A stretch of DNA of 64,000 nucleotides, taken from Salegentibacter mishustinae. GTDB lineage: Bacteria; Bacteroidota; Bacteroidia; Flavobacteriales; Flavobacteriaceae. The stretch is from NCBI RefSeq assembly GCF_002900095.1, contig NZ_LLKN01000001.1:310001-374000 (forward strand), in the 5' to 3' direction. How positions within the stretch are numbered: the first letter of the stretch is position 1; the number at the start of each line of letters is the position of its first letter. The notes beneath the pieces were generated by a model, which saw only the letters and a program-made list of their open reading frames with translations, searched no databases and was not told where the DNA came from. The translations under genes and the position numbers were made by a program. Positions 64 through 15,967 of this stretch are shown piece by piece.

Positions 64-106
64 CCGATTTCTCAAACAGCCTATAAATACTGATAACTTA
101 TTTTCT

Positions 107-681: not shown

Positions 682-719
682 CAATCAATTCTGCCCTTGC
701 AGATCAAAAAACGAACATT

Positions 720-860: not shown

Positions 861-1256
861 ATAGATTACTTAAAATTATCCTCAGAACTTTTTAATTAAG
901 TTAAAAGTAGTGGATTTATCAGGAAAAGGGTATGCCAGAAAAACGACCTATGTGTGCGGTATACTAAGTATAAATCTTAAAGATCATGCAGCCAGTGAGC
1001 ATCCCGCAATTTGGGTGGATTTGAGCTGGCAGGATTAGGAGTGCATAACTTATTAAACTCAGAAAATTATCTATTTCTAATTATAGTTATCTGTGGAATT
1101 CTATTTTTTAATATTACAATCCTGGTTGGTAAGCTGTGAAAGCAATAAATGGAATTATTGAATTAAAATAAATATCTTTAAATTCACGTGAATTAGCTAT
1201 ACAATTAAAGTATAAATTAATTCATTAGGAATCCGAAACATTACAATATTCGCGCA

Positions 1257-3536
1257 ATGGTAAAAAGTTTGACATTTCTTATCTTACTTTTTTGGAGTAG
1301 TTACTCCATTTATTCTCAAGATTCCATAAAGTTTCCGGAAGATCAATTCGCACGCTATTACGAATTACCTAGACCGCTGGTTCATCTGCATTTAAATAAA
1401 TCAAAATTTTCTTCCCCTGATAAAATTTGGTTTACAGCCTACCTATTTGATCAAACTCAGGGAATACCCTTTGAGTGGGAAAGAACGCTTTATTGCGGAC
1501 TTTATGATGAGAATGGGAAGCAGATTACCGAGTTTTCTTTTTTATTAGAAAATGGTATAGCTTCTGGAAATATACCTATTATGCAGAATTTGACTCCAGG
1601 TATTTACTTCGTTAAAGCGTATACCAATTGGATGAAAAACTTCAAGGAAAGTGTTCCGTTTTCACAAGAAATCGTAGTAGGCTCTCCATCGTTGTCAAAG
1701 AAGACTAAAGATCTTGACAGTATAGTAATTACTAGCGAGGCTCAAAATTTAGTTTTAAATACCTCAAATACAATTGGTTTTAAAATAGAAGGATTTAATT
1801 CTAAAAGTCACTCGATAAAAGAAGTAAGGCTTGTAGATAAAAATGATAAGGAAACAGAAAGTCCTGTGCTAACTAATGATTATGGTGAGGGTAAATTCAC
1901 CCTGTTCTATCAGGATAATCAAACTTATACCCTTGAGATTCGTATGGAAAACGGGGATCTTCTTAAGAAAGAACTACCGGCAGCAAATTCTAAAGGAATA
2001 ACTATGAGAACAAATAACTTTTTAAGGGATAAAGTTGTAATTAATCTTACCACCAATAAAAACTCAATATCGGACAATGAATATTTTTTAGCACTGCATA
2101 AAAATGGAGCACTTCACTGGAAGGGATTTAGTATTAGCCAGGAAAATACTTTAATTTCATTTCCCAGGAAAAACCTTAGTCCCGGAATCAATGTAATTAC
2201 GCTAATGGATAAAGAATTAAATCCGATTGCAGAACGAATGATTTTCAATGAACCTTTAAACCAAACGCCGGAAATGGAATTTGAAAAAATAGAATCGAAA
2301 AGCGATAGCATATTTGTAAGTGCTCGCTTTACTAATCTTCCTGTCAATGATTCTGTAAAGTTTAGCATATCCATCGATCCTTCAGACGAGCCCAAGCACG
2401 ATTTGTCTAATTCTATTATCTCTTCATTCCTTTTTAAACCCTATTCCAAAAGAGAATTACCAAAAGATCCTGATTTTAATTTACAACCTGGACAATTAGA
2501 CATCACTTTATTTAATAAAGGTTGGAGTACTTTTAGATGGAGTGAGATTCTGAATAATCCTCCAGAAGTGAATTACAAGCTGCAAAACGGAATCAGATTT
2601 CAAGGTGAGGTTTTACTTGATAATGAACCTCAGGCGTATAAGGACATTATATTTTTCAAAGATAATATTATGGATTTTTTTATAGTTCAGACTGATTCCC
2701 TAGGCAAGTTCAATTCTGAAGAAATTCTATTTAATGATGAAGTATTTAAAGTTTCCATTTTAGAAGAAGACGAAACTTTAATTAAACCCGACTTGTTTAT
2801 AGCCTTTAATCCATTTGCCCAGAATTCCAATGATTCTTTTCCAACTTTAGATAGTATTTCCAATACAGGTTATCCAGAAAATATTGGTCAAATTCTAAAG
2901 GATACGACTACCGAAGAATTAGAGGAAGTATTAATAACAGCTCGGAAGAGCGAAGAAAATCGAATAGCTACCGGAGCGGCGTATGAAAAATTTAAAGTCA
3001 CTCCTGAATTAGTAAAGCATAATCCTTTAGTAACCGATTTAATTAGAAAAGCGGGATTTAAAGTGCGGAGAAATGGTTATAGTCTCCATATAGGTCCTAA
3101 ATCTCCATCAAATTCTCCCTATGGTACGCCACCAAAAGTTTATCTTAACGACTTTGAAATATTTGACAATAGTGAACTTATTAATATGCCTTTGAGTAGC
3201 ATTGATGAAATATACTATGAACATTTAGGGGTAGAAGGTAATAAAGGTGGATCCATCCATATATTTGAAAAAGTTGCAAATAAGGAGAAAGGTGAAAAAA
3301 ATTTTAAACAAATAGTAGTGACTAATGCTTATAAAAACTCGAAGGATTATCAACAAAAATCCCAGGCTAAGTCAAAATCCAATGCTAATTTTTGGATTCC
3401 TCAACTCCTAAGCAATCACGGGGTATTTACTTTTAGTTTTCCTCAACAAGAGGCTAATAGTTACCATCTAAATATTCAAGGCTTTTCAAAAAATGGTCGA
3501 TTAATATCAATAAAGAAGGAACTTAGAGTAAATTAA
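1257..3536 (+). CDS. Surface protein with MG2-like and TonB-plug-like regions
   Basis: This is a 759-aa exported protein. The first ~20 residues form a signal peptide ending YSQ. Residues ~35-140 (PRPLVHLHLNKSKFSSPDKIWF, then ...GIYFVKAYTNWM) resemble the macroglobulin-like domain common at the start of Bacteroidota TonB-plug proteins of unknown ligand. Around residues 555-690 the pattern ELEEVLITARK, a PKVYLND segment and a final GSIHIFEK strand look like a TonB receptor plug, but there is no beta-barrel after it. It is therefore not a complete transporter. It is probably an envelope protein; its role is unknown. It is island cargo and its 3' end faces a decayed DoxX-like gene. Confidence 0.6.
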   Translation: MVKSLTFLILLFWSSYSIYSQDSIKFPEDQFARYYELPRPLVHLHLNKSKFSSPDKIWFTAYLFDQTQGIPFEWERTLYCGLYDENGKQITEFSFLLENGIASGNIPIMQNLTPGIYFVKAYTNWMKNFKESVPFSQEIVVGSPSLSKKTKDLDSIVITSEAQNLVLNTSNTIGFKIEGFNSKSHSIKEVRLVDKNDKETESPVLTNDYGEGKFTLFYQDNQTYTLEIRMENGDLLKKELPAANSKGITMRTNNFLRDKVVINLTTNKNSISDNEYFLALHKNGALHWKGFSISQENTLISFPRKNLSPGINVITLMDKELNPIAERMIFNEPLNQTPEMEFEKIESKSDSIFVSARFTNLPVNDSVKFSISIDPSDEPKHDLSNSIISSFLFKPYSKRELPKDPDFNLQPGQLDITLFNKGWSTFRWSEILNNPPEVNYKLQNGIRFQGEVLLDNEPQAYKDIIFFKDNIMDFFIVQTDSLGKFNSEEILFNDEVFKVSILEEDETLIKPDLFIAFNPFAQNSNDSFPTLDSISNTGYPENIGQILKDTTTEELEEVLITARKSEENRIATGAAYEKFKVTPELVKHNPLVTDLIRKAGFKVRRNGYSLHIGPKSPSNSPYGTPPKVYLNDFEIFDNSELINMPLSSIDEIYYEHLGVEGNKGGSIHIFEKVANKEKGEKNFKQIVVTNAYKNSKDYQQKSQAKSKSNANFWIPQLLSNHGVFTFSFPQQEANSYHLNIQGFSKNGRLISIKKELRVN

Positions 3537-3539
3537 GCT

Positions 3540-3811
3540 TAAGTCGATAATTAAGTCTGGTCCTTTTAGTTAAAATAAGTATTCTACCAAACACTTCGAA
3601 TAGGCCAAGCGTAGGGTTATTGCAAAAAATTTTAGAATATTCATAAAAAGCCCACATCAATTCCATTCAACTCGGCTAAAGCTTTATCAATTTCTGTGGC
3701 TCCAACAAATTGAAATAGTTTACCAAATCCATAGATAAACATTGCTACTACAAGAATCCAACTTTTAGTATTTTCAATTATTTCTAATTGATCTTTTTTA
3801 CTAAAATTCAT
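3540..3811 (-). pseudogene. DoxX-like small membrane protein, frameshifted remnant
   Basis: The frame from 3811 reads MNFSKKDQLEIIENTK, then a membrane segment (WILVVAMFIYGFGK), and stops after 56 codons. The reading continues in another frame as MWAFYEYSKIF, then LGLFEVFGRILILTKRTRL after a further slip. Together these resemble the small DoxX-like membrane proteins of Flavobacteria, which run on as a four-helix protein. At least two frameshifts and a lost C-terminus make it non-functional. It is the last member of the same-strand cassette-like run to its right. Confidence 0.6.
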
Positions 3812-3841
3812 TAATACAGAATTTTTTCTCTAGGTTTTAAC

Positions 3842-3898
3842 TAACGGTTATGATTAGCGCAAGTTGCTGGAGTAAGAATGCGGACTTGTCGGTTTAAC
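3842..3898. repeat. Cassette-like intergenic repeat, copy 1
   Basis: A ~55-bp element beginning TAACGG, with CAAGT (3860-3864) facing ACTTG (3884-3888), and ending CTTGTCGGTTTAA. It is clearly related to copies at 5119-5171 and 6371-6425. Each copy lies between same-strand genes. Confidence 0.65.
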
Positions 3899-3994
3899 CA
3901 TTTTCTTTCCTGGTTTTCTAAATCACAATTTTGACTAAGCCCCCTAGTTGCTATAATCGACTTGTTGTACACTATTTTGTATACTATTAATTAT

Positions 3995-5094
3995 TTAGTT
4001 CTCTATATCTTTTCCTGCTAACAATTCTTTAAAGAATTCAGATACCATTGCTTTTCCTGAGTCCATACTCGAATCTACGTTTGATAAAATCGTTATTGTA
4101 TAATCCGATTCAGGTAAGTAGATTATTTCCCCACTGATTCCATACCATCCTCCGCTATGACCTAAAATAATTTCATCATACCTTTGATCTACATCTATTC
4201 CATAACCTAAATGCGTGTTATAACCTTTCAACCTTGGTTCGATCATTAAATCCAAGGTTTTTTTGCCTATTAACTCGTATTTGAAAAGTGCTTTATTAAA
4301 ATTGAATAAATCTTCGACAGTGGAATAATGGAAACCTCCAGGAGAAGCTTTTGATAAATAGAAAATATTATTCTTTAAGGCTTGGGTTGTATCTCCGGCA
4401 AAGGTATAGCCATTGGCTTTATTTTTTATTATTGCTTCAACATCAAAAGCTGAAGTATTTGGCATCTTAGCTTTTTGAAATACATTTTCTTCTAAGTAAT
4501 CATAATAATTAGAGCTCGTAATCTCTTCAATAATTAATCCCAGTAATACATAACCAGCTGCATCATAATTATATTCCGTACCCGGTTCGGAAAGTAGGGA
4601 GTCGTTTACAAATAATGTTACAAAATCCTCTACCTCTTCGAATTCAAATTTACATTTGTCTAAGAAGTTAGTGACATAAAAGTTGGGCAATCCGGCGGTA
4701 TGAGTTAATAATTGAGATATGTTTACAGAATTTCTAACTTTCTCGTTCGGATAGTCCTTTAAATATTCTCCTATCGGTGTTTCTAAATCAATTTTTCCTT
4801 CTTCATACAGTTGAAGAATTGCAACTGCAGTAAATGCTTTTGTTATTGAAGCTATATTAAACTTTGTATCAAATTTATTTTTTACATCTAGTTCTTTACT
4901 AGCTAACCCATAAGCTCGTTTCTGGATAATACTATCTCCTTTTGCAACCAATATTGTCCCTGAAAATTCTTCTCCAGTTAAATTGCTTAAAAATGTATCT
5001 ATTCTTTTATCGACAAAACGATTTTCTTGAGAATAGAAATTTTGAGTTATAACTCAACTAATAGAATAAGAATTGAGAATTTATGATTTTTCAT
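3995..5094 (-). pseudogene. Serine hydrolase (beta-lactamase family), frameshifted in the signal peptide
   Basis: The main frame (from 4951) encodes a class C beta-lactamase/DD-peptidase-like domain with the SxxK motif in NIASITKAF, a YNYDAAGY-type Tyr motif and a C-terminal HSGGWYG. Upstream, an ATG at 5094 opens a signal peptide (MKNHKFSILILLV) that hits a stop at 5047-5049; the mature N-terminus (ITQNFYSQENRF) continues in another frame. One missing base near 5047-5058 explains this. The intact paralogue at 5252-6340 has the expected continuous signal peptide. Without the leader the product would not be exported, unless translation restarts at the weak internal TTG at 4951. A sequencing error is the alternative. 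Confidence 0.7.
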
Positions 5095-5118
5095 AGTTGA
5101 TTTTGTATTAATTTGGTA

Positions 5119-5171
5119 TAACGGTTAAGATTGGCAAGTTCCGTGAGTAGGGAGGCGAACTTGTCGGCTTA
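5119..5171. repeat. Cassette-like intergenic repeat, copy 2
   Basis: Starts TAACGGTTA and ends CTTGTCGGCTTA. It contains a perfect CAAGTT (5135-5140) / AACTTG (5158-5163) inverted pair. It separates the two serine hydrolase genes. Confidence 0.65.
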
Positions 5172-5251
5172 GTTTATTTGTTCTTGATGTCTAAAATATT
5201 CTATACTTTTCAAATTACCCGTTATTTGCGATGAACCGATTCTGTGCCTAG

Positions 5252-6340
5252 TTATTTTACCTCTAATTTTCTTGAAATCTTGGTTTTGAAAAAATCAGAA
5301 ACTTCTTGCTGGCCATTGTTGTCGAAATTAGATAAAATGATTACGGTATAATTTGAATCTGAGAAATCCATCCATTCACATCTTATACCATACCAACCTC
5401 CGCTATGTCCTATTATTGTTTCTTCATATCTTTTATCGATATCAATTCCATATCCCAGATGCGTATTATAACATTTAACTTTAGGTTTTAGCATTAGTTC
5501 TGTAGTTCCTTTATTCAGGAGTCCGTAATTTCTTAAAGTTTTGGAGAACTTAAATAAATCTTCAGCTGTCGAGTAATATCCTGATGCCCCTGAAGCTTTT
5601 GATATTAAATAATCATTTTTAGCCAAAGACTTATCTTCACGTAAATAAATAGAATAGCCATCGGCAGTATTATAATTTACACCATCAATTTCTAGGGCTT
5701 TTGTTTGATCCATACCTATAGGATCAAAAATACTCTTTTGTAGGTAGTCATAATAATTTTCTCCAGTTACGTTTTGGATGATCAATCCTAATAAAACGAA
5801 ACCCCCGCCATTGTATTCGTATTTACTTCCTGGCTGAAAGTTTAATGAGTCATTAGCAAATAAAGGTAAGTAATCTTCAAGTTCTCGATATCTATCCTTA
5901 TTTGATTTTTGGTAATCTTCTCCATAGATGGCCTTTGTTCCAGCAGTATGAGTAAGTAACTGGTGTATAGTAACCGAATCTAAAACTCTTTGGTTTGGAT
6001 AGTTTTCTATATAATTTCCAATTGGTTTATTTAAATCAACTTTTCCCTGCTCATATAGTTTAAGAATACCAACAGCAGTAAATGATTTTGTAATTGAGGC
6101 TATATGGAACTTAGTGCTTTTATCAATTTTGATCTTATTTTCAATATTGGAATATCCGTATGTTCTTTCTTCGAGAATACTGTCATTCTTTCCTACTAAA
6201 ATTATTCCTGAAAATGTTTCTGGTTTTAATGTATCTAAAAATGATGCAATTTCTGAATCTAGTTTTTTATTATTCTGGGAATATAGGTTATTAGTAATGA
6301 TGATAGTTATGGAAAATAGGAATAAGATGAAATTACGCAT
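5252..6340 (-). CDS. Serine hydrolase, beta-lactamase/penicillin-binding family
   Basis: This 362-aa exported protein has a signal peptide ending NLYSQ at about residue 22. The catalytic SxxK lies in HIASITKSF, the Tyr motif in YEYNGGGF, and the third motif is HSGGWYG, as in class C beta-lactamase-like esterases and DD-peptidases. The substrate is not evident; many such proteins are peptidases or esterases rather than resistance enzymes. It is a close paralogue of the frameshifted gene to its left, on the same strand and separated by the intergenic repeat, so the two probably arose by duplication or serial capture. Confidence 0.8.
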   Translation of the reverse strand: MRNFILFLFSITIIITNNLYSQNNKKLDSEIASFLDTLKPETFSGIILVGKNDSILEERTYGYSNIENKIKIDKSTKFHIASITKSFTAVGILKLYEQGKVDLNKPIGNYIENYPNQRVLDSVTIHQLLTHTAGTKAIYGEDYQKSNKDRYRELEDYLPLFANDSLNFQPGSKYEYNGGGFVLLGLIIQNVTGENYYDYLQKSIFDPIGMDQTKALEIDGVNYNTADGYSIYLREDKSLAKNDYLISKASGASGYYSTAEDLFKFSKTLRNYGLLNKGTTELMLKPKVKCYNTHLGYGIDIDKRYEETIIGHSGGWYGIRCEWMDFSDSNYTVIILSNFDNNGQQEVSDFFKTKISRKLEVK

Positions 6341-6370
6341 AATTAGAATTTATTATGAAACAATTTGGTT

Positions 6371-6425
6371 CAACGGCCTCCTATCGCAAGTTGGCGGGAT
6401 AGGGAACGCGGCATTGTCGGTTTAG
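6371..6425. repeat. Cassette-like intergenic repeat, copy 3
   Basis: Begins CAACGG, contains CGCAAGTT and ends GCATTGTCGGTTTAG. It aligns with the copies at 3842-3898 and 5119-5171 but is more diverged, and its inner stem is weaker. Confidence 0.55.
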
Positions 6426-6490
6426 ACCTGGTTTGTTGGTCAAGATAATTATTTTTTTCTAACGGTGCCGCCTATTTGAGTTATTCGCTG

Positions 6491-7021
6491 TTAGGTGCTG
6501 GCGATTTTAGTTACAAATTCGTTCCAACCTAAAATATCTAATTTGAAACCTTGTTCGTCATCTAATTCTATAAAAATCTTTTTATCACAAAGTAAATTTC
6601 TTCCTCTCCAAAATCCTTCATTAATTCTCATTTCATCAACATCTGACCAATATTCATCTTTTGCATTACACAGGTTTGCAATTTGATTAACCACATATTT
6701 CATTTCGGATGCTGGAATTAAATTGTCTTTTCTATAAAAACTTACAGATCCAATTTTAATTTTATTTGTTTCTGTTTTTAAAAACTCATCATTTTCTTTT
6801 CCAACTTTAAATAGAACAGTATCAAATGCTTTGAGGAAATTTTCTTCTAATGGACTTTCCATATGATATAAATCTATTTCTCCCATTTCTTGAATACCTA
6901 CTACTTCAGATTTTTCTAAATAATAATCGGTGTTGAAATTTTTAAGTTCCGATTTAATACCTTCACTATTAGTTGAAGATGAATTTGTTTTTTTACTGCC
7001 AAATAAATTAAATAGTCCCAT
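6491..7021 (-). CDS. Hypothetical protein
   Basis: A 176-aa soluble protein starting MGLFNLFGSKK, followed by a Ser/Asn-rich linker (residues ~12-25) and a mixed alpha/beta body with many acidic residues. There is no signal peptide or membrane segment. The family is not recognised; the N-terminal GLFxxFGxKK style is seen in many small cytosolic Bacteroidota proteins. It is the first gene of the same-strand cassette-like run, with repeat copy 3 downstream. It is intact, with no sign of frameshift. Confidence 0.6.
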   Translation of the reverse strand: MGLFNLFGSKKTNSSSTNSEGIKSELKNFNTDYYLEKSEVVGIQEMGEIDLYHMESPLEENFLKAFDTVLFKVGKENDEFLKTETNKIKIGSVSFYRKDNLIPASEMKYVVNQIANLCNAKDEYWSDVDEMRINEGFWRGRNLLCDKKIFIELDDEQGFKLDILGWNEFVTKIAST

Positions 7022-7197
7022 ATTATTGATTTTTGGTTGTGAATCGCTTGCACCTTACTCGTTATATCTCGATAAATTTACTCCTTTAAGTACAAATATC
7101 TCGGGATAAACGCCGGTTTCGCTAAATATAAAATTTTTAAAAAAGGGTATTACGGAAAACCGTTACTTAATGACAATCTTTATTCTAATTAAGGTAA

Positions 7198-7464
7198 CTA
7201 TTTTTCCATTTCTGAATAAATAACTTTGGTAATCATCTCAGGTTCTATATTTAGCAAATTGGCAAGCCTTACTATCTCACCAAGCGTGAATCTATCGGGG
7301 TGACTAAGTTTAACCATATATCTACCATAATTTATACCAAGTGATTTAGCTATTTTGGTTGGATATAATTCCGAAAGCGTATACATCTTCTTAATCCTGC
7401 CAGTTTCAAACATCGATCCTATGGAAAGTAATGTTGGGTCTTTATGTTGGTCGTCTTTTGCCAT
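7198..7464 (-). CDS. Small XRE-like helix-turn-helix protein
   Basis: An 88-aa protein. Residues ~35-78 (KIAKSLGINYGRYMVKLSHP, then FTLGEIVRLANLLNIEP) have the helix spacing of an XRE/Cro-type DNA-binding domain, in which the final helix chooses regulators by 'age of residence'. It is divergent from the sigma-factor gene at 7609, with a 144-bp AT-rich gap between the starts, so it may repress itself and the sigma/dCas12f operon. That role is inferred from position only. Confidence 0.6.
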   Translation of the reverse strand: MAKDDQHKDPTLLSIGSMFETGRIKKMYTLSELYPTKIAKSLGINYGRYMVKLSHPDRFTLGEIVRLANLLNIEPEMITKVIYSEMEK

Positions 7465-7608
7465 GGGGTTATTTATTTACCCTAAAATGACAACTAATTC
7501 ATTTATGGTATTGATTAATATACTTATTATAAATTATAATTTGTTTTTTAAATATATTTATTTACTTTTAGTAAGTATTTAAGTACTAATTGTAATTTAT
7601 AAACTTTT

Positions 7609-8388
7609 ATGTTACAGCGTATTTTTGAATTATTACAACAAGGACATCCAGATGCTATGGAGTTTATCTATGCCAGGTACCATAAGAGTCTCTTTTGGGT
7701 TGGAAAAAAAAGGATTGAAGATGAATTTGTTATAGAAACCATCCTGCAGGATACTTTTTTAAAATTATGGGAGAAAAGGGATACGATAGAAAGACCCGAA
7801 CATATTTATTTTTTCTTACGCTATGTAATGAAGATGCAGTGTACCTATTACTATTGCCGGCCTAAAAATAAGTTTGACAAGAACACCAAGAGATTAGATT
7901 TATACGAAAATTATCAGGAATATATGCACGGTTATGATCCAGAAGAGGTGGATTACCATCTGGTAGACCAGGATGCAGACCAAAACGCCTTCGACCGTTT
8001 TAAAAGCATCTTCCCATTGCTTAGCGCCCAGAGAAGGCACCTGATAGAACTTTGTTTAAAATATGGCTTTAAGTATAAATTGATTGCCCAGGTAATGGGT
8101 ACAGGCATCACTCAAACTAGTAACGAGGTTAAAAGAGCTATTGATGATATTAAAAAAATCATCCACAAGGGCAGTACCCTGGAAACAAAACCTAAACCGC
8201 ATTTAGCTATCAAAATACAAGGAAAAATGACCGAGGAGCAGGAAAAAGTTTTACAGTTACGTACGGAAAAACAGTATTCTTTCGCGGCCATTGCAAATGA
8301 ACTTAAGCTTTCCCAAAAGGAAGTCCACAAAGAATTTATGGCCGCCTATAAACTGATGCAGCTTAAACACGAACAACAATCAGCTTAG
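7609..8388 (+). CDS. ECF-type sigma factor with extra C-terminal HTH, partner of dead Cas12f
   Basis: This is a 259-aa protein. Residues ~1-85 form sigma region 2 (AMEFIYARYHKSLFW; VIETILQDTFLKLWEKRD), which binds core RNA polymerase and melts the -10 region. Residues ~128-187 form region 4 (FPLLSAQRRHLIELCLKYGF, then a second helix pair). Unlike ordinary ECF factors (~170-200 aa) it continues with residues ~205-259, another HTH (LRTEKQYSFAAIANELKLS). There is no anti-sigma gene beside it; instead a dead Cas12f-like gene starts 2 bp downstream. The pairing fits the Bacteroidota sigmaE-dCas12f systems, where the guide RNA complex brings the sigma factor to DNA. Fold call is firm; function is by analogy. 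Confidence 0.85.
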   Translation: MLQRIFELLQQGHPDAMEFIYARYHKSLFWVGKKRIEDEFVIETILQDTFLKLWEKRDTIERPEHIYFFLRYVMKMQCTYYYCRPKNKFDKNTKRLDLYENYQEYMHGYDPEEVDYHLVDQDADQNAFDRFKSIFPLLSAQRRHLIELCLKYGFKYKLIAQVMGTGITQTSNEVKRAIDDIKKIIHKGSTLETKPKPHLAIKIQGKMTEEQEKVLQLRTEKQYSFAAIANELKLSQKEVHKEFMAAYKLMQLKHEQQSA

Positions 8389-8390
8389 TG

Positions 8391-9488
8391 ATGGAAAAAG
8401 AGACGATAAAGCTAACACGAAAAATCCAGCTGTTGGTCGATTTGCCGACCTCAAAAGAGCGAAAGGAAGCCGAGAATAAATTATACCAATGGCAAAATCG
8501 TTGTTATAGAGCAGCTAACCTAATTGTTTCGCATCTATATGTACAGGAAATGATTAAAGATTTTTTTTATTTATCTGAGGGAATAAAATATAAACTTGAA
8601 GACGAAAAAAAAGATGAGGATGGCATCCTAAATCGTTCCCGGATGAATACAACCTACCGTGTAGTTTCTGATCGCTTTAAAGGAGAAATCCCTACCAATA
8701 TTTTGAACAGCTTGAACAAAATTTTGTTCAATAAATTCAATAATCAAAAACAGAATTACTGGAAGGGAAAATGTTCACTATTGAATTTTAAAAGGGATAT
8801 GGCTTTTCCCTTTGATGCCCTAGGGATTCAGAGGTTATCCTTTAATGAAGAAAAAAAAGCATTTTGCTTTCGTTTATTTTCCGTTCCCTTGAAAACCTAT
8901 TTAGGAGGGGATTATACCGATAAACGACGCTTACTTGAGCGGGTAATAGCGGGAGAAATCAAGCTTTGCGCTTCAAAAGTTCAATTGAAAAATAGGAAAA
9001 TTTATTTGTTAGCCGTATTTGAAATTGAAAAGGAGAAGCATAACCTGAGACCGGAAGTAATTGCAGAAGCTTCTTTATCGCTGGAATATCCAATTGTGGT
9101 GAAATCCGGAAAGGCAAAATTCACTATTGGTACTAAAGAAGAATTTCTATATCGTAGACTGGCCATACAAGCTGCTCGAAAAAGAGCACAGGTAAGTGCC
9201 ACCTATGCTAAATCAGGTAAAGGGCGTAAAAGAAAAACAAAAGCAGTAGAGAGGTTTCGCGAGAAGGAACGAAATTATGTAAGTAATCGCTTGCATGTAT
9301 ACACCAGAAAATTAATTGACTTTTGTATTAAACACCAGGCGGGTACGCTTATTCTACTGAACCAGGAAGACAAAATCGGAATTGCTAAAGAAGAAGGTTT
9401 TGTGCTGAGAAACTGGAGCTATTACGAATTAATGACCAAAATAAAATACAAGGCCGAGAAAAGCGGTATTGAACTTATAACAGATTGA
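8391..9488 (+). CDS. Nuclease-dead Cas12f/TnpB-like RNA-guided DNA-binding protein
   Basis: Its 365 residues start at the ATG 2 bp after the sigma gene; an overlapping GTG at 8388 is an alternative. The C-terminal half has the Cas12f/TnpB RuvC layout: a beta strand (residues 224-238), the arginine/lysine-rich helical insert (R255-K293, with SGKGRKRKTK and EKERNYVSNRLH), the RuvC-II strand (GTLILLNQED, 318-327) and FVLRNWSYYELMTKIKYKAE. The catalytic Asp of RuvC-I appears as Ser228 and the RuvC-II Glu as Leu323/Asn324. The protein ends at residue 365, before the zinc finger and RuvC-III Asp. So it should bind guide RNA and DNA without cutting. The sigma neighbour and downstream hairpins support RNA-guided transcription. 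Alternative: a decaying TnpB, but no frame lesions are seen. Confidence 0.85.
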   Translation: MEKETIKLTRKIQLLVDLPTSKERKEAENKLYQWQNRCYRAANLIVSHLYVQEMIKDFFYLSEGIKYKLEDEKKDEDGILNRSRMNTTYRVVSDRFKGEIPTNILNSLNKILFNKFNNQKQNYWKGKCSLLNFKRDMAFPFDALGIQRLSFNEEKKAFCFRLFSVPLKTYLGGDYTDKRRLLERVIAGEIKLCASKVQLKNRKIYLLAVFEIEKEKHNLRPEVIAEASLSLEYPIVVKSGKAKFTIGTKEEFLYRRLAIQAARKRAQVSATYAKSGKGRKRKTKAVERFREKERNYVSNRLHVYTRKLIDFCIKHQAGTLILLNQEDKIGIAKEEGFVLRNWSYYELMTKIKYKAEKSGIELITD

Positions 9489-9497
9489 AAATTTAAA

Positions 9498-9600
9498 TTA
9501 CGAGGGGGCTTGTAAACCCGTAAGGTGAGGTCGAAAATCACACTCACTAAATGCACTTAGCATATACAACTTTGTGCCCTATTATTTTGTATGAAATTAA
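9498..9600 (+). ncRNA. Candidate guide RNA (scaffold hairpins plus guide) of the dCas12f system
   Basis: Ten bases after the dCas12f stop, three hairpins follow in a row: TTACG-bulge-GG/CC-CGTAA (9498-9523), GTGAG/CTCAC (9525-9547) and ATGC/GCAT (9551-9563). The scaffold-like part ends ATACAAC at 9570, as Cas12f repeats often end in CAAC. If the guide begins at 9571 it reads TTTGTGCCCTATTATTTTGT. Only one repeat-like unit is seen, so this would be a single-guide gene and not a CRISPR array. Boundaries and transcription are inferred. Confidence 0.6.
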
Positions 9601-10715
9601 TTTGATACATGGTAGGTGTTCGCTTAACTTTAAATAAAATTTAGATAACTGAAAATTATCATTGTATTCGCATGATAACATTCAGCAATATATTTCCATA
9701 CCCGTTCAGCCCATTCCCCTGCATTTCGCAAAAGCTTCATTCCGGGAAAAGCGCTTCTCTATTAAGGTCTTGGACACCATCGAATAAATTGCGACTTCCA
9801 TTACGCTAACCCGATGAAAGATCGGATCGCTCCATTCCATTCGAAATTTTTCGATGAAGTCCGCCCGGTTGAGGTCCAAATCATAGTTTTTCTTTCCCAA
9901 CAAAATAGTGGTGTTTCCTGTTCCATATTCAAAATCATCCTTACGCCCCTCCCCTTTTTAAGATGCAAAAAACAACATCCTTTCCTGGACAGCGGCATAA
10001 AGCCGATTCGGCTTTGCCTACTCTTTTTATACGCTTTACCACGCCAGGATGTTGTAAAATAAACGCATCGAAAAAAGGTAATGGGAAGGCACTATAGGAA
10101 GTAAATCTACAAGGAAGCGATAGACTCAGCTGAAAACCTTAAAAAGCTTTGATCGAGTCTGTTATTAAAATTCAAAAAAAGGAAAATGCTCGGGATATAA
10201 TAAGTAAATCTATTTAAAATGTCAATTCAATAAATGGGTGATGTAATCCAAAATTAGATAAGATTTTATTGAAGTCAACAGTGGAAATTTTTGAATGGTT
10301 TTTAATCTACGTATTCAAAAATCTGCGTTTTGAAAATTCTTGAATTGAAGCAAATCGGAATTTTTACCTCAAATTAAATCAAAATACATCAAATCAAACG
10401 AAAATTTCATTTTCAAAAACAACCCGGAAATAGTATTTTAAAGTGTTGATTTTCTGATTAATATCAAGACAGGAATTCTTCGGTTTTGACTTTCGCTAAA
10501 TAATAAAATGCTTCGAAAAGGAATAGGATTTTTCTTGATTCCTTTTTTAAAAAGCAGTTGGTGCAAACCAACATGTATGAAAAATTTTGTCCCGCCTGCG
10601 GGACGAAATCGAATAGCAAGAGGGTAACACGCTACGCGATGTTAAGCACTCCTTTTCATTTTTAATCAACTGTAAATCAGTTGTTTAAAATTAATTTAAA
10701 TTCCTGATTTTAAGC
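9601..10715. other. Non-coding region between guide RNA locus and bfmA
   Basis: No convincing gene. It contains a 10-bp inverted repeat (ACAACATCCT at 9972-9981, AGGATGTTGT at 10046-10055) enclosing an AAGCCGA/TCGGCTT hairpin, a GTCCCGC/GCGGGAC hairpin near 10590-10605, and AT-rich DNA with repeated AAATCAAA around 10370-10410. Position just upstream of a mobilization gene makes an oriT or replication-like region possible. A 65-codon frame on the minus strand (9706-9903) has no ATG and no recognised family. Confidence 0.4.
9972..10055. repeat. Inverted repeat enclosing a hairpin
   Basis: ACAACATCCT (9972-9981) is matched by AGGATGTTGT (10046-10055), 64 bp apart. Inside lies AAGCCGATTCGGCTT, a hairpin with perfect 7-bp arms. 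It could be a terminator-like, origin or transfer-origin structure. Confidence 0.5.
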
Positions 10716-10771
10716 AATTTGCGACAAATGCCCAGCCAGGGCCCATTTTTAGGGAAGAATTTGCGACAAAT
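10716..10771. promoter_or_regulatory. Two 14-bp direct repeats upstream of bfmA
   Basis: AATTTGCGACAAAT occurs exactly at 10716-10729 and again at 10758-10771, 42 bp apart (about four helical turns), the second ending 9 bp before the bfmA ATG. This is the expected form of an operator for a self-regulating DNA-binding protein or of binding sites in a transfer origin. Confidence 0.6.
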
Positions 10772-10780
10772 CGGCGAATT

Positions 10781-11176
10781 ATGGACTCATTTATCGGCAT
10801 CAGGTTCAAAAAAGAAACAGCAAAACGTTTTCAGGAATTTTCAAGAACACACTTCAAATCACACACCGAAGCTCTGGAAACAATGCTCGACTTTTTCTTC
10901 TATAATGAGATTTCTCCCCACGAAAGATTGGGCCCGACCGGGAGGACTATTGAAGCTTCTTTTAAGAAACGTATCAATGCGGTTATTGCCATTATGCGTG
11001 ATATGGAAAAAACCCAAACCAAACCTACAGCGGCGATGATCGCCTCCCTTTTCCAAAGCGAAGCACCACCTCCAAAGAAACCACTCATCCGGGAAAAGAA
11101 AATCTTCCGAGAGAAAAAGGAAGATATTTCTAACTTGGAAGAAGATGGTTTCCGCCATAGCAAAAATCCAACATAA
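10781..11176 (+). CDS. BfmA/BtgA-like mobilization protein
   Basis: A 131-aa basic protein. The N-terminal ~40 residues (IGIRFKKETAKRFQEFSR, TEALETMLDFF) look like a ribbon-helix-helix-type DNA-binding domain, followed by GRTIEASFKKRINAVIAIMR, typical of the BfmA/BtgA family from Bacteroides mobilizable elements. These proteins bind the transfer origin and assist a relaxase. No relaxase (BfmB/BtgB-like) follows; the next gene overlaps by 1 bp (TAATG). The element may therefore depend on a helper or have lost transfer. Recognition is from motif memory. Confidence 0.7.
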   Translation: MDSFIGIRFKKETAKRFQEFSRTHFKSHTEALETMLDFFFYNEISPHERLGPTGRTIEASFKKRINAVIAIMRDMEKTQTKPTAAMIASLFQSEAPPPKKPLIREKKIFREKKEDISNLEEDGFRHSKNPT

Positions 11177-11856
11177 TGAAAGAAGTCAATTACATTAGTC
11201 ACCTAAACGGGGTATTTCGAAGATTTTCCGATGACAATAAAATTTCATCCTCACACCGCAGCTTATACCTGGCTTTTTTTGAATTATGGAACCAAAAGCG
11301 TTATCCTATAACCATTATTCTTAACAGTAAACAGGTGATGGCACTAGCCAAAATACGTTCCAGAACGACCTACCACAAATTACTTCTGGATCTAACAAAT
11401 TGGGGATATCTTCAATACCATCCCTCCACTAGTCCACAAATAGGATCCCTCGTGGAGATGTCCAGATTTGATACACACCCTGATCAAAAAATGGCCAGGA
11501 CTTATCCAGTTTCTGAACAGGTACCTGTCCAAAAATTGGTATCTTTTAATAAACATAAGAGTAAACATATAATAAACTCTTTTATAAACACTTGTCCAAA
11601 AAATGAACAAGAGGTTATTGAGTTTTTCAGAGAAGAAAAAAGAAGTTCCTTGGAAGCTAAAAAATTCTATAATTTTTATGAATCCATAGTTTGGAAATTA
11701 AATGGTAAAAATCCAATCACAAATTGGCATGCTTGTGCACGAAGCTGGATATTAAAAGCTGACGAAATAAAAAAAGGTCTAAAGTCTAATTCACCGTCCC
11801 ATTATCGGGATAACTTGTATACTAGTAAGAATAAAACTATGGAGAGCCGTTATTGA
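11176..11856 (+). CDS. Element-associated HTH protein, replication-initiator-like
   Basis: This 226-aa protein overlaps the bfmA stop by 1 bp, so the two are cotranscribed. Residues ~1-85 look like a winged helix (HRSLYLAFFELWNQKRYP; KQVMALAKIRSRTTYHKLLLDLTNWGYLQY), as found in replication initiators and DnaD-like proteins of mobile elements. The C-terminal part (EVIEFFREEKRSSLEAKKFYNFYESIVW, NWHACARSWI) is the DnaD/helicase-loader-like segment common in Bacteroidota transposon ORFs. Role: probably replication or maintenance of the excised element. The exact family is not certain. Confidence 0.55.
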   Translation: MKEVNYISHLNGVFRRFSDDNKISSSHRSLYLAFFELWNQKRYPITIILNSKQVMALAKIRSRTTYHKLLLDLTNWGYLQYHPSTSPQIGSLVEMSRFDTHPDQKMARTYPVSEQVPVQKLVSFNKHKSKHIINSFINTCPKNEQEVIEFFREEKRSSLEAKKFYNFYESIVWKLNGKNPITNWHACARSWILKADEIKKGLKSNSPSHYRDNLYTSKNKTMESRY

Positions 11857-11956
11857 TTTAAAATTGAATTAAATTCAAAATTTAATCCAATTTATTTTTA
11901 CGTTTATCCTCTTTTTTATTTTACTTAGTTAACGAAAACAACTTGGGTACAGTTTT

Positions 11957-11982
11957 AACTGCAATACTGCTTTCGCGCAGTT
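11957..11982. repeat. Small hairpin upstream of hypothetical gene
   Basis: AACTGC (11957-11962) and GCAGTT (11977-11982) form 6-bp arms in the 169-bp gap before the gene at 12026. The surrounding text (TTAACG, ACAACTTG) recalls the cassette-like repeats further left but is not a clear copy. Confidence 0.35.
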
Positions 11983-12025
11983 ATATAATGCTAGTAAAGG
12001 TGAACAGTACTAATTAAAATTAATT

Positions 12026-12388
12026 ATGAGTTTAGATGTTCAATTAATTAGAAAAGTATATTTAAGTTACGATGAAGGTAAAACGTATATTGAGAAAGAA
12101 GAAGAATTGTATTGGTCCAATATCACTCACAACTTAAATAAAATGGCAGCGAAAGCTGACATTTATCAAGCATTATGGCGACCTGAAGAAATTAATTCGA
12201 CCAAAGCAAAAAATATTATGAAATTACTTGAAAAAGGATTGAAGAATCTAAAATCAAGACCTGAATATTTTGAGCAATTCAACTCGAGTAACGGATGGGG
12301 TTTATATGAGAACTTTGTGCCATTCGTTGAAAATTATCTGAAAGCATGTAAAGAATTTCCCAACGCTGATATTTATGTTTGTAGGTAA
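12026..12388 (+). CDS. Hypothetical protein
   Basis: A 120-aa soluble, mostly helical protein starting MSLDVQLIRKVYLSYDEGK. Notable features are EEELYWSNITHNLNKMAAKA near residue 30, YQALWRPEEI near residue 50, and NGWGLYENFVPFVENYLKAC near residue 90. No signal peptide or catalytic motif stands out. I have the impression of a widespread small phage or accessory-gene family of unknown function. It stands alone between the bfmA operon and hairpins, and looks intact. Confidence 0.6.
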   Translation: MSLDVQLIRKVYLSYDEGKTYIEKEEELYWSNITHNLNKMAAKADIYQALWRPEEINSTKAKNIMKLLEKGLKNLKSRPEYFEQFNSSNGWGLYENFVPFVENYLKACKEFPNADIYVCR

Positions 12389-12423
12389 TCTTGCTTCAAT
12401 CAAAAAGTAAAAAACAACAAATT

Positions 12424-12477
12424 GCTTTCTTAAAGAAAGCACAAAACAAGTATAATTGCTTTTTACAGAAAGCAATT
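12424..12477. repeat. Two adjacent hairpins
   Basis: GCTTTCTT/AAGAAAGC (12424-12440) is followed by AATTGCTTT/AAAGCAATT (12454-12477), 9-bp arms with a 6-nt loop. They share GCTTT cores. They lie 36 bp past the stop of the gene at 12026 and may act as terminators between it and the convergent hsdR remnant, though neither has a strong U tract. Confidence 0.5.
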
Positions 12478-12549
12478 ATGGAAAATTTACTATTAGAATT
12501 TCAGTCAAAAATTGCAAAGATACCCTTAGCAATACAGCGTTATCTTAGA

Positions 12550-12825
12550 TCAAATCGATTTAGACAACATTCTCACTGCACCGGAATAGAGTTCTTTACC
12601 CTCACTGTCAAAGGACAAAATGTTTGGAACAAATAATTGAGGTACTGCTTTTTCATAAAATTATGAACTTCATGAGCGCCATCTAACCAACTTATAGAAG
12701 GTCTTATTGGCGTTTTAGCTTCCCCAATTACTACCGGAACCTGCAGCCTCGTCTTTATTCAGATTCACACCACTTAGTTGATGGACTATATAATATTCTA
12801 CGCTATTAAACTCGTTAAATGCCAT
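12550..12825 (-). pseudogene. hsdR: Type I restriction subunit R (HsdR), deleted and frameshifted remnant
   Basis: Three pieces in different frames give an HsdR N-terminal region: MAFNEFNSVEYYIVHQLSGV from 12825; then GEAKTPIRPSISWLDGAHEV; then AVPQLFVPNILSFDSEGKEL and YSGAVRM, ending at 12550. In an intact HsdR more than 100 residues separate the first two pieces, so an internal deletion plus at least one frameshift has occurred, and the translocase part is missing. The ATG overlaps the last codons of the AbiEii-like gene by 11 bp, so hsdR was once translationally coupled to it. Recognition of the pieces is from family memory. Confidence 0.75.
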
Positions 12826-13510
12826 TGGTTAGTTCTTTTATTTCTTCCATAATTCGATCGAAGCGAATTTGTTGATCTTCATGATATAGGTTTGCGATGA
12901 TTGCTTCCTGCATATTTGCCTTTTCCTGTATAGCAGCAAACTGTTCCTTCAAGTACTCTTGAACCTCCGGATCGGAAGCCGAAATTTGTTTTTTAAAATT
13001 AGAAGTGTAGTTTAGGAGATAAACAATATCTTCAAAATCATGACTCATTCGAGGATCATTTCCTCCTCGACCTTCAAAAGCTGCAAACTTAGTTGCTAAA
13101 AAATAAGGCAATGTAAGAATCCTGATTGGCACCTTTTCGACTTCTATAGTTATTGAGTTTTCAAATCCCGATTCAAACCAGGGATTTGCCGGAGCCCACC
13201 CCACCTCGGTAGTAGACATTACGTCCACTTTAATTTCTTTTAACCTGAATCTACAAATAACGTCGTCCTCTGCAGATTGTACAAAACCTTTATTTTCAAG
13301 TGCCACACGTAGTTTTTCGAGCTCTCCAACATTTGCAATCTCTAAAGTAATATCAATGTCTTTTGTTGGCCTTACATCCTCAGCTGCCGTATCGTCTATA
13401 TATAGACTTACCATGGCACCACCTACATAAACTACATCTTTATTCAGTTCTCCTAGCGCGACTGCAACCTTACTGGTGGCTTTGCGATTTATTATAGTAT
13501 TTTTTAGCAT
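12815..13510 (-). CDS. AbiEii-like nucleotidyltransferase (toxin-like)
   Basis: A 231-aa protein with the nucleotidyltransferase core: VYVGGAMVSLY (residues ~27-37) then RPTKDIDITLE (~47-57) carrying the two metal-binding Asp residues, and a later Asp strand (KVDVM). This is the AbiEii/type IV toxin layout, in which the enzyme transfers nucleotides to RNA such as tRNA. Its start overlaps the preceding HTH gene by 7 bp, as in AbiE operons, and its stop overlaps the hsdR remnant, suggesting the pair once sat inside a type I restriction locus. Confidence 0.75.
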   Translation of the reverse strand: MLKNTIINRKATSKVAVALGELNKDVVYVGGAMVSLYIDDTAAEDVRPTKDIDITLEIANVGELEKLRVALENKGFVQSAEDDVICRFRLKEIKVDVMSTTEVGWAPANPWFESGFENSITIEVEKVPIRILTLPYFLATKFAAFEGRGGNDPRMSHDFEDIVYLLNYTSNFKKQISASDPEVQEYLKEQFAAIQEKANMQEAIIANLYHEDQQIRFDRIMEEIKELTNGI

Positions 13511-14016
13511 AGACCGTTTTCCAATTCTACAATAGCGAGATTTTTTTCACGGGCTCTTCCAACTCTTAGTACATCGCAAAGAGACATTAGCTCATAAAAC
13601 TTCTTGTCTTTTAAACAAGCTTCGGGAACGTTAGGGTGTAATGGCTCAATTGATTGCCCTCTTAAGTCACCTTTACCATATGGCCATACATAAGCCTCCT
13701 GACTTTCAATAACTTCATTTAATGGTGGTGCCGAATGTGCCGTTGCTACTCCTCGTACCAATGCCCCAGGTTGTTGAGGATAAACATGTGGTAATCCATA
13801 TTGAAGAAAATCCAGAATAGCCGTTTTCATTAATCGTTTTTTGTCCGGAAAAATTAAGCCCGCAATTACCGATCTATTAATACTTTCACTAATTTCACTT
13901 CCACTTATACCAAGCTCATATGAGAGATCTTTCATATACCAACTTCTATCCTGCTTTGCTGCTATTTTAAGAAGTATCACTATATCGTGCGGTCTCATTC
14001 CGCTATGTTTCTTCAT
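13504..14016 (-). CDS. AbiEi-like winged-helix antitoxin/regulator
   Basis: A 170-aa protein. Residues ~8-65 (MRPHDIVILLKIAA; WYMKDLSYELGISGSEISESINRSVIAGLI) form a winged-helix domain of MarR/AbiEi type. The remainder (LPHVYPQQPGALVRGVATAHSAPPL; YVWPYGKGDLRGQSIEPLHP) has no recognised enzyme motif. It precedes and overlaps the nucleotidyltransferase gene, matching the antitoxin-first order of AbiE systems. A 26-bp perfect palindrome 44 bp upstream of the start is the likely operator it binds. Confidence 0.7.
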   Translation of the reverse strand: MKKHSGMRPHDIVILLKIAAKQDRSWYMKDLSYELGISGSEISESINRSVIAGLIFPDKKRLMKTAILDFLQYGLPHVYPQQPGALVRGVATAHSAPPLNEVIESQEAYVWPYGKGDLRGQSIEPLHPNVPEACLKDKKFYELMSLCDVLRVGRAREKNLAIVELENGLC

Positions 14017-14059
14017 GGCCCTGCTATTTAATTATTACCAAAAATAGCAATTATTTCTC

Positions 14060-14085
14060 AATTCGCGATTCGCGAATCGCGAATT
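14060..14085. promoter_or_regulatory. 26-bp perfect palindrome, likely operator of the AbiE-like operon
   Basis: The sequence is its own reverse complement over all 26 bases and contains three overlapping TCGCGA units. It starts 44 bp upstream of the first gene of the minus-strand antitoxin/toxin pair, the expected place for autoregulation by the winged-helix protein. Confidence 0.7.
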
Positions 14086-14101
14086 ACGGTATGTTATTCA
14101 T

Positions 14102-14173
14102 TTAATTCACAGTAAGAGTGGTGTCATTTACCATTCCTGGTGTACGGATATCATCGAGAAATAGTTTTTTCAT
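14102..14173 (-). pseudogene. Receiver-like protein, N-terminal fragment
   Basis: A 23-codon frame reading MKKLFLDDIRTPGMVNDTTL before a stop. The start KLFLDDIR-P is characteristic of small receiver-like proteins (cyclic-phosphate processing receiver type). The rest is missing. This sits in the non-coding 14086-14424 stretch, which also contains a C-terminal-looking fragment (YIENWDNESGGVLKILGID) on the same strand near 14290-14370, perhaps from another lost gene. Confidence 0.4.
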
Positions 14174-14237
14174 ATATTCTGATTTATAGCATTTTAAAGG
14201 AATTAAAAAACGGATAGACAAAGACATCAAAAACAAA

Positions 14238-14271
14238 AAAGCCTTGAAAATAAATCGATTAACAAGGCTTT
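14238..14271. terminator. Bidirectional terminator downstream of integrase
   Basis: AAAGCCTTG (14238-14246) and CAAGGCTTT (14263-14271) form 9-bp arms with A/T runs on both sides. It lies 150 bp after the integrase stop and upstream of the AbiE-like operon, isolating the two. Confidence 0.75.
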
Positions 14272-14424
14272 AAACACTTGACCTTGAACTAGTCACTTAA
14301 AATAATATCTATTCCGAGGATTTTAAGAACACCACCACTTTCATTATCCCAATTTTCGATGTAGGAAAAGCCTTAAGAACAGAATTGGTCAAATGCCTAC
14401 TATCAGATTTTATTTAATCTCTAA

Positions 14425-15663
14425 TTAAATATTAGGCTTCCAATTTCTAAGCTTCCGACTAAGTTCAGACATATCCTGACTTAATTTATCTTCAAGGACT
14501 CGCGCATATATTTGGGTTGTTGCTATTTTCGTATGCCCCAAAAGCTTAGAGACAGTTTCTATAGGTACTCCATTGGAAAGCGTAACAGTAGTAGCAAAAG
14601 TATGTCTGGCCATATGGAAGGTTAAATTCTTCTTGATATCACAGAGATCAGCGACTTCTTTTAAATAAAGATTAACCTTAACATTGGTTATAACTGGCAA
14701 AAGACTTTGGCTTATTTCTGTCATTGGATGATCCTCATACTTTTCGAGTATCTCTAGAGCTTTATCCAGTAAAGGTATCTTAACTTTGGCTTTAGTCTTA
14801 TTTCTTGAAGTGAAAAGCCACTTCTGGCCGTCCAGACCATTCCTAACATGGTCCTTGGTTAAATCATTCATATCTGTAAAACTAATTCCTGTATAACAGC
14901 TAAAAACAAATAAATCCCTCACCCTATCCAAACGGTCATTATGAAAATTAAAATCCTCGATTTGTATTAACTCACTAAGATTTAAAAAGTCTCGTTCCTT
15001 TTTTTGAAAAGTAGGTTTCCAGCGTATAAACGGATCCTTTTCAACCCATTCCAAATGAAAAGCAAGAGTTACTATTTTACGAAGTCTCTGTAAATGCTTC
15101 ATTACCGTGTTATGACTCATGGCATTCACATGGCCCTTTGGCCAGTAGTTAAAAAGGAAATTCGCAAAGTCATTGATAAACTTATAATTAAGTTCGTTTA
15201 GATAAATAGTGGTCGTCTTAAGTTCTTCGTTTAAGAATTTACTTACATATTTCTCTGTAACACCGAAATTACGGATGGTTCCTTTGGTAAGCGTTTTCTC
15301 AATCTTTTGCTTGTGATACTCTAAAATATCTAACAAGGTTTTATCTCTAGGCCCTTCCCCTAAAAAATTTGATTTAAGAAGGTCTGCGGTTACTTTTTTA
15401 TTCTGAAACCTTAAGTCCTGGTAATGCTGGAAAATCTTTGTTCTGGTCTCCGAAATGAGGTTATTAGCCTCCCTAGCTTGTTTAGAATTACCATCGACAC
15501 GTTGTGTCGAAGGATCCCAAAGATCGAATGGAACTTTAGATTTTAAACTAATGTTTACTCTACGGCTATCTAGAGAAATTCGAACGTAGAGATTTGCTTG
15601 ATTGTTTTTCACTCTGGAAGCATACACCCAGAATAAGATGGAAAATGTTTTAGAAGTACGCAT
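14425..15663 (-). CDS. int: Tyrosine recombinase / integrase of the island (IntDOT-like)
   Basis: This 412-aa protein (IntDOT of Bacteroides CTnDOT is 411 aa) has three parts: an arm-binding N-terminal domain (residues ~1-95), a SAM-like core-binding domain (~105-210) and a catalytic domain (~225-412). Catalytic motifs are HMARHTFAT (His and Arg), LLGHTKIATTQIYARV (second His; Tyr nucleophile ~386) and a beta-hairpin Lys in SRNKTKAKVKI. In SCYTGISFTDM, the place of the usual first Arg is Ser, as known for IntDOT. It lies 230 bp from the tRNA-Arg att site, so it should catalyse integration and excision of the 45-15911 island. Confidence 0.92.
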   Translation of the reverse strand: MRTSKTFSILFWVYASRVKNNQANLYVRISLDSRRVNISLKSKVPFDLWDPSTQRVDGNSKQAREANNLISETRTKIFQHYQDLRFQNKKVTADLLKSNFLGEGPRDKTLLDILEYHKQKIEKTLTKGTIRNFGVTEKYVSKFLNEELKTTTIYLNELNYKFINDFANFLFNYWPKGHVNAMSHNTVMKHLQRLRKIVTLAFHLEWVEKDPFIRWKPTFQKKERDFLNLSELIQIEDFNFHNDRLDRVRDLFVFSCYTGISFTDMNDLTKDHVRNGLDGQKWLFTSRNKTKAKVKIPLLDKALEILEKYEDHPMTEISQSLLPVITNVKVNLYLKEVADLCDIKKNLTFHMARHTFATTVTLSNGVPIETVSKLLGHTKIATTQIYARVLEDKLSQDMSELSRKLRNWKPNI

Positions 15664-15743
15664 AGGTATCGTCTTTAAATTAATATTCAGTTAAAAGACG
15701 AAAGTAAAATCCACAAAAAATTTAAGCTACTGGTAATCAAACT

Positions 15744-15778
15744 GTCAACATGTTGACTGGGTAATTTTTTATGTTGAC
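15744..15778. promoter_or_regulatory. Candidate integrase arm-type binding sites, right end
   Basis: GTCAACATGTTGAC (15744-15757) is a perfect 14-bp palindrome with two GTTGAC cores; a third GTTGAC follows at 15773-15778 within ATGTTGACGATTTGT. The latter motif recurs near the left att site at 107-120. They lie between the integrase start and the att site, where arm sites and the int promoter are expected. Confidence 0.5.
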
Positions 15779-15835
15779 GATTTGTTAGATAATAAATATA
15801 ATAAAAGTCATTCTAACAAAAGCTCTAAAAAACAT

Positions 15836-15869
15836 AAAACCCTGTAAATCATAGAATTTACAGGGTTTT
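15836..15869. terminator. Strong bidirectional terminator inside island right end
   Basis: AAAACCCTGTAAAT (15836-15849) and ATTTACAGGGTTTT (15856-15869) form 14-bp perfect arms around a 6-nt loop. It lies between the tRNA and the integrase start, and could end tRNA transcripts before they enter the island. Confidence 0.8.
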
Positions 15870-15892
15870 GATATCATTTGAATTCTCTAAAA

Positions 15893-15911
15893 GTGACCTT
15901 GCCAGGATTCA
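15893..15911. repeat. Right attachment site (att), within tRNA-Arg 3' end
   Basis: Identical to 45-63. It overlaps the 3' end of the intact tRNA-Arg gene, so integration here keeps the tRNA functional. Confidence 0.8.
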
Positions 15912-15967
15912 AACCTGGAACCTCCTGAGCCGTAATCAGGTGCGCTATTCAGTTGCGCCACAAGGCC
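15894..15967 (-). tRNA. tRNA-Arg (anticodon ACG)
   Basis: It folds as a 74-nt cloverleaf. The 7-bp acceptor stem pairs GGCCTTG with CAAGGTC (one G-U); the anticodon loop TTACGGC between CCTGA and TCAGG gives anticodon ACG; the T loop is TTTGAATC. CCA is not encoded. Its 3' end is the island attachment site. Confidence 0.95.

Follow-up and report, generated by a model that had tools for sequence, protein, structure and literature searches.

A predicted SusC leader target for an island-borne sigma–dCas12f operon of Salegentibacter mishustinae

We analysed a 64,000-nucleotide stretch of the Salegentibacter mishustinae genome (contig NZ_LLKN01000001.1, positions 310,001 to 374,000; the whole stretch is referred to here as the window), which carries a sigma factor gene, a gene for a nuclease-dead Cas12f (dCas12f) and a guide RNA (gRNA) in a row on the plus strand. 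An initial annotation, made from the letters alone, had described this row and proposed that it forms an RNA-guided transcription system on a mobile island. The features of the operon are as follows, with positions counted from the first letter of the window.

7609–8388, plus strand: extracytoplasmic function (ECF)-like sigma factor with an extra C-terminal helix-turn-helix (HTH), 259 amino acids (aa) (Pfam; NCBIfam sigma70-ECF; PDB 9n9q_C ‘RpoE’, E = 2e-89)
8391–9488, plus strand: nuclease-dead Cas12f, 365 aa (PDB 9n9c, E = 2.4e-183; 74% identity to 9n9m; RuvC residues replaced)
9502–9570, plus strand: gRNA scaffold of three hairpins ending in ACAAC (34-sequence alignment with covariation; covariance model R1, own-genome match E = 2.3e-17)
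9571–9590, plus strand: guide TTTGTGCCCTATTATTTTGT, 3′ end assumed (directly after the conserved scaffold end; seed shared with a susC leader)

Both open reading frames (ORFs) are intact, and the dCas12f ATG at 8391 lies two bases past the sigma stop, in the order and spacing first described. In the sigma factor, Pfam returned a region-2 match below cut-off (residues 20–79), a Myb-like HTH match at the position expected of region 4 (residues 142–175) and an additional C-terminal region-4 match (residues 206–248). NCBIfam assigned the sigma factor to sigma70-ECF and placed the Cas12f near the TnpB family, under the cut-off of that model. A sequence search of solved structures gave sigma–dCas12f entries as best matches for both proteins (9n9c, 9n9m, 9n9o and 9n9q for dCas12f, 9n9q for sigma). 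dCas12f residues 1–363 aligned with 9n9c, ‘Nuclease-deactivated Cas12f’, and sigma residues 1–257 with 9n9q_C; both proteins match chains that were deposited together in 9n9q. The solved dCas12f chain is identical at 363/363 residues to a protein of Allomuricauda (Flagellimonas) taeanensis JCM 17757 (hereafter F. taeanensis). Foldseek with an AlphaFold model of the window dCas12f also placed 9n9m (74% identity) and 9n9c (70%) on top; the model was mediocre (mean pLDDT 72, pTM 0.51), and the fold search agrees with the sequence result while adding little to it.

Aligned with the active Al3Cas12f (9nzr) over residues 84–362, the window protein shares the fold, has Ser228 in place of the RuvC Asp and Leu323 in place of the Glu, and stops where 9nzr continues for ~90 residues, its C-terminal part being absent. 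Among 22 aligned proteins, the window’s included, column 228 holds no acid (S in 20, A in one, R in one) and column 323 is acidic in none. The replacement of the acidic RuvC positions agrees with the initial annotation; an acid is common at column 326 (18 E, 1 D), hence loss of the Glu depends on the alignment. The pairing with a sigma gene is conserved among relatives: an ORF of 254–269 codons ends 1–120 nucleotides (nt) upstream of dcas12f in all 22 full-length loci, and of 79 named loci, 76 have a sigma-length ORF immediately upstream, recognised by length and place (>150 codons, ending ≤200 nt upstream); two of the three loci that lack one begin at contig ends. Judged by its sequence, the window operon is a close homolog of the known sigmaE–dCas12f system, as the initial annotation had suspected. 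Two outcomes named there as refuting it, best hits of the 365-aa protein outside Cas12f/TnpB and an unconserved sigma/dCas12f pairing in relatives, did not occur.

The scaffold is supported by covariation across 34 homologous sequences, with 6 of 16 pairs changed on both sides. Folded as a single sequence the gRNA region was not significantly stable (z = −1.0), hence the comparative alignment was needed, and by that alignment the run of three hairpins ending in ACAAC appears to be a conserved RNA. The same scaffold follows dcas12f in all 22 full-length loci. The host genome yielded two matches to the covariance model R1, built from the 34 scaffolds with the window’s among them, and each match follows a dcas12f; across the genus R1 detected 59 gRNAs, spread over 12 of 15 Salegentibacter genomes with up to 12 in one. 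Tandem gRNAs were seen in many loci; L094, L045, L089 and L025 have three to five consecutive copies with differing guides.

The perfect 11-nt seed of the guide, TTTGTGCCCTA, occurs at two places in the 3.82-Mb genome, the gRNA itself and C2:1288383–1288393. The latter lies 253 nt upstream of susC1, which encodes a 996-aa SusC, on the sense strand, and the guide matches this leader at 15 of 16 nt. In the leader of a paralogous operon it matches 13 of 16 nt at the corresponding place, −247 from susC2, again in sense; the two SusC proteins are 74% identical. The operon targeted would be SusC–SusD–M16 peptidase. Two genes of the PF00144 beta-lactamase fold lie on the island (3995–4951 and 5252–6340), and a relative of them lies ~3 kb from the targeted susC (L136 11137–12213).

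Guides of relatives show the same tendency. In a family-wide comparison, 34 guides from 19 genomes were set against the 700 nt immediately preceding SusC homologs of the same genome, which 15 of the 19 genomes possess. Of 74 guide–leader pairs, 12 reached at least 13 of 16 nt in sense and none did so in antisense; the window accounts for two of the 12, and some of the guides are near-copies. Within the genus, 42 distinct guides were obtained from 30 loci of the 59 gRNA matches, and five from genomes in which no SusC homolog was found were set aside. Of the remaining 37, 16 (the window’s being one) matched a same-genome leader at 12 or more of 14 nt in sense, compared with 0 of 37 in antisense and 7 of 740 shuffled guides; 28 leaders were used, one of which (L244) starts at a partial match. 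Such sense-only matching is as expected of a directional initiator. Outside the genus, the F. taeanensis guide has a site beside a G at which 12 of 14 nt match, those of the 10-nt seed perfectly; the first ATG of a SusC ORF follows 261 nt later. An Allomuricauda sp. NAT111 guide matches 14 of 14 nt in front of SusC, also with an adjoining G. F. taeanensis and two relatives together hold 24 near-matches to the 14-nt guide pattern; the 12 with loci include three gRNAs and two sites by susC. Among Salegentibacter genomes, 10 have both gRNAs and SusC, two have gRNAs only and two have neither, a count that leaves out G407 (61% complete). Relatives’ guides thus show a tendency to match SusC leaders in the sense direction, at a rate far above that of the controls. 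We also considered that a conserved guide (GCGTGGGCTC..) might be directed solely at its own operon, and rejected this because the sequence was found before susC elsewhere.

Several observations weigh against an active, susC-directed guide in the window. Published work on sigma–dCas12f reportedly describes a target-adjacent motif (TAM) of 5′-G, with guide-dependent recruitment of RNA polymerase and initiation at a constant distance in the absence of promoter motifs. The initial annotation had called for a genomic match next to a G and upstream of a gene; the site upstream of a gene was found, before the susC operon, and the G was not adjoining. Both susC sites have T at −1 and G at −2, hence a fit to the TAM requires a guide that starts one base earlier and carries a mismatch. 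Hairpin 1 of the window scaffold lacks one conserved pair. With up to three mismatches the 18-nt guide matches 21 places, itself included, compared with 20 for a reversed-pattern control, so the number of near-matches alone proves nothing. Contexts were examined for three of the 20 non-self near-matches: two are by susC, and C2:1316272 (one mismatch in 16) is inside a 437-aa ORF, murA-like by eye. A 13-nt pattern matched, with one mismatch, at two places (L114 and L115), which are also inside ORFs. The second guide of this genome, GCGTGGGTATCTCT, has no other genomic place at up to one mismatch and no good target; for 21 of the 37 genus guides, none of the leaders found in the same genome gives a match of 12 of 14 nt; and in a third Allomuricauda genome, no SusC was found by four near-matches with loci, one of which is a gRNA. 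The case for the target rests on the unique seed, its position and the relatives.

Many SusC leaders also contain a structured RNA element of ~140 nt, which we term R2. It lies upstream of SusC in 30 of 55 SusC loci, always on the SusC strand. It also precedes dcas12f in 41 of the 79 named loci, in 34 of them by no more than 1.2 kb. The 30 loci retrieved by an R2 search lead into susC (n = 18), into sigma–dcas12f (n = 7) or into neither (n = 5). In the host genome R2 occurs before susC1 and before a second sigma–dcas12f operon; it is present neither before susC2 nor in the window. That second sigma–dCas12f–gRNA system (L116 9031–10913, equal to G000:C2:341030–342912) encodes a dCas12f 67% identical to the window’s, with R2 upstream. 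The R2 model gave matches in 70 of 397 family genomes: 18 of the 19 with dCas12f hits and 52 of the 378 without one. Rfam contained no curated match to R2; L136 8000–8900 gave nothing at E up to 1, and L110 8500–9400 gave sub-threshold matches to five families (the best, E = 0.002, outside R2). By eye, a short peptide ending FD(I/L)LF.KKPKNP(I/V) is conserved between R2 and susC in L137, L138, L142, L144 and L283.

One R2 member with its flanks folds far better than shuffled sequences (z = −5.25), and an alignment of 23 members is compatible with two structures. An antiterminator-like fold of 37 pairs has 87.7% of cells paired and 87 double-change cells compared with 28.9 in shuffles; its further pair types number 41 compared with 37.5, and 57 of 500 shuffles reached the number of 41. 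A competing hairpin of 23 pairs has 97% of cells paired and 14 double-change cells compared with 3.6. Both structures were drawn from the same sequences and are hence favoured in the sliding control. A T-rich tract follows the competing hairpin in 24 of the 25 loci with a recognised 3′ arm (30 examined), compared with 63 of 725 in the control. The covariation thus supports two competing folds, one of them terminator-like. In the host’s own R2, the minimum-energy fold is the antiterminator-like form.

The strand common to both folds, the switch strand GCGTGGGCTCNCTTAT, is also the guide sequence of many relatives; such guides copy the 5′ arm of the R2 hairpin and are complementary to its 3′ arm. 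At the level of 12 of 14 nt three kinds of site were observed in SusC leaders: the R2 hairpin (about −470 to −533), an inverted repeat in mid-leader (about −250), which is used by the window guide and also by G301, and a hairpin near −80.

Compared with the F. taeanensis sigmaE–dCas12f system (9n9c, 9n9m, 9n9o and 9n9q), the window system has a dCas12f 74% identical over its full length, a homologous RpoE partner, the same gRNA scaffold and a guide match at about the corresponding place in a SusC leader, and both of these leaders carry R2. A relative of the window integrase lies 1.7 kb from the start of the F. taeanensis dcas12f. The two differ in guide sequence, in the base adjoining the target (T in the window system, G in F. 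taeanensis) and in that the F. taeanensis sigma gene is preceded by R2 whereas the window’s is not. On these likenesses the system is of a known kind. The target, the guide–leader relation and R2 were not found in the literature searched, which excludes the central sigma–dCas12f publication.

Taken together, we consider it probable that the window carries an island-borne sigmaE–dCas12f homolog whose guide is directed at the susC1 leader and which activates susC–susD–M16 peptidase. The gRNA-loaded dCas12f would bind the DNA of the leader, and the sigma factor would bring RNA polymerase to it, with transcription beginning just downstream of the guide site and reading into the operon. In this way the island would control an operon located at another place in the host genome. 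R2 stands at the beginning of the susC1 leader, and a guided start downstream of R2 would bypass the terminator-like hairpin and turn on an outer-membrane importer otherwise held off.

The alternative that survives best, though we think it unlikely, is that the window copy is degenerating cargo with a residual susC match, inactive in this host. The T at −1, the pair lost from hairpin 1 and a sigma gene without the R2 that precedes the second system of the same genome would all be in keeping with decay; set against them are two intact ORFs, a scaffold conserved apart from that one pair, and the unique 11-nt seed upstream of susC1.

TldR is a dead TnpB-family protein with a guide RNA, like the window system, and it is not known to have a sigma partner, unlike the window dCas12f with its adjacent sigma gene. 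By analogy, dCas12f–gRNA could bind the leader as a repressor or roadblock while the sigma partner serves other promoters. Silencing by a dead RNA-guided protein of this family has a precedent in the fliC promoter, as described for TldR (PMC13418256), and the targets of many relatives lie inside R2 in the leader. We nevertheless hold repression to be quite improbable here, given the sigma-length ORF beside nearly every dcas12f (76/79), the co-deposition in 9n9q of the chains that both proteins match, and the confinement of matches to the sense strand (16/37 compared with 0/37), which fits an initiator with a direction. That the hairpin-arm guides act on leader RNA rather than DNA, by pairing with the 3′ arm, is suggested by their identity with the switch strand but is very improbable, since guides at the mid-leader site and near the susC start, the window’s included, lie outside that hairpin and the solved complexes include dCas12f–gRNA–DNA (title of 9n9m).

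Returning to activation at the susC leader, the geometry of the sites is what gives rise to the bypass idea: in the host’s own R2, the T run comes 66 nt after the hairpin target, and the other sites are downstream of R2, hence a transcript begun at a guided start would lack the R2 hairpin in part or entirely. RNA-guided initiation may thus bypass attenuation. A broader and more tentative possibility, which we do not favour over its opposite, is that sigmaE–dCas12f systems in general are RNA-guided attenuator-bypass switches, with R2 before sigma–dcas12f forming a positive feedback loop and integrase islands spreading the switch between species. Guides that copy the hairpin 5′ arm, or lie downstream of it, would then yield a transcript unable to form the R2 hairpin, and the switch carried by the islands would take over susCD operons of new species.

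The operon lies within an island of 15.9 kb (45–15911), bounded by 19-bp direct repeats of which one is at the 3′ end of a tRNA-Arg gene. Other features of the island and its boundary are listed below.

45–63, no strand assigned: left attachment repeat of 19 bp, a duplicate of the 3′ end of tRNA-Arg (exact direct repeat of 15893–15911)
7198–7464, minus strand: ORF of 88 aa, judged XRE-like by eye and divergent from the sigma gene (without Pfam match)
10781–11176, plus strand: BfmA/BtgA-family mobilization protein (NF041200, 88.5 bits, cut-off 24)
14425–15663, minus strand: tyrosine integrase (Pfam Phage_integrase, SAM_5 and Arm domains)
15893–15911, no strand assigned: right attachment repeat inside tRNA-Arg (direct repeat of 45–63)
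15893–15967, minus strand: tRNA-Arg(acg), the integration site (ARAGORN, Rfam RF00005)

The repeats, the tRNA-Arg, the integrase and the mobilization gene were all identified, in agreement with the earlier description of a tRNA-integrated island and as expected of an integrative, mobilizable element. The integrase-gene stretch is 92–95% identical beside the same tRNA in four Salegentibacter loci (L181, L182, L183 and L186), and in a fifth (L185) it is present in two pieces, 90 and 94% identical. Four of these five genomes have no gRNA match on that contig, and the fifth has its closest one at a distance of 61 kb. The sigma–dCas12f module thus looks like variable cargo of the island, with the caveat that four of the genomes are drafts. 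Of the 79 named loci, taken with up to 10 kb on each side, 30 have a relative of the window integrase (E up to 1e-4) and 12 have relaxase relatives. The dCas12f family spans Flavobacteriaceae, Weeksellaceae and Cyclobacteriaceae. In a phylogeny of 80 dCas12f proteins, from which L098 was dropped, the Salegentibacter label needs at least eight changes on well-supported branches, a pattern in keeping with transfer and paralogy.

Of the 79 named loci, seven have a homolog of the 88-aa ORF at the corresponding position. Several susC and sigma loci also have a small XRE-like regulator gene divergent from R2 (for example, L136 8853–9100). Elsewhere on the island, 12815–14016 holds an AbiEii-like nucleotidyltransferase gene and an upstream partner ORF, possibly a type IV toxin–antitoxin pair. 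Next to the tRNA, an M57-like metallopeptidase gene (16109–16963) is present; several relatives lack it, their flanks at ~16052 and ~17092 being directly joined.

The susC1 leader, with its unique seed match, can be predicted as a native target of an RNA-guided sigma factor carried by a mobile element. The native role is directly testable, as it would involve one guide, one operon (plus a weaker paralog) and one host. R2, if it is an attenuator, would add a further layer of control over SusCD importers, one that is present in genomes without dCas12f too.
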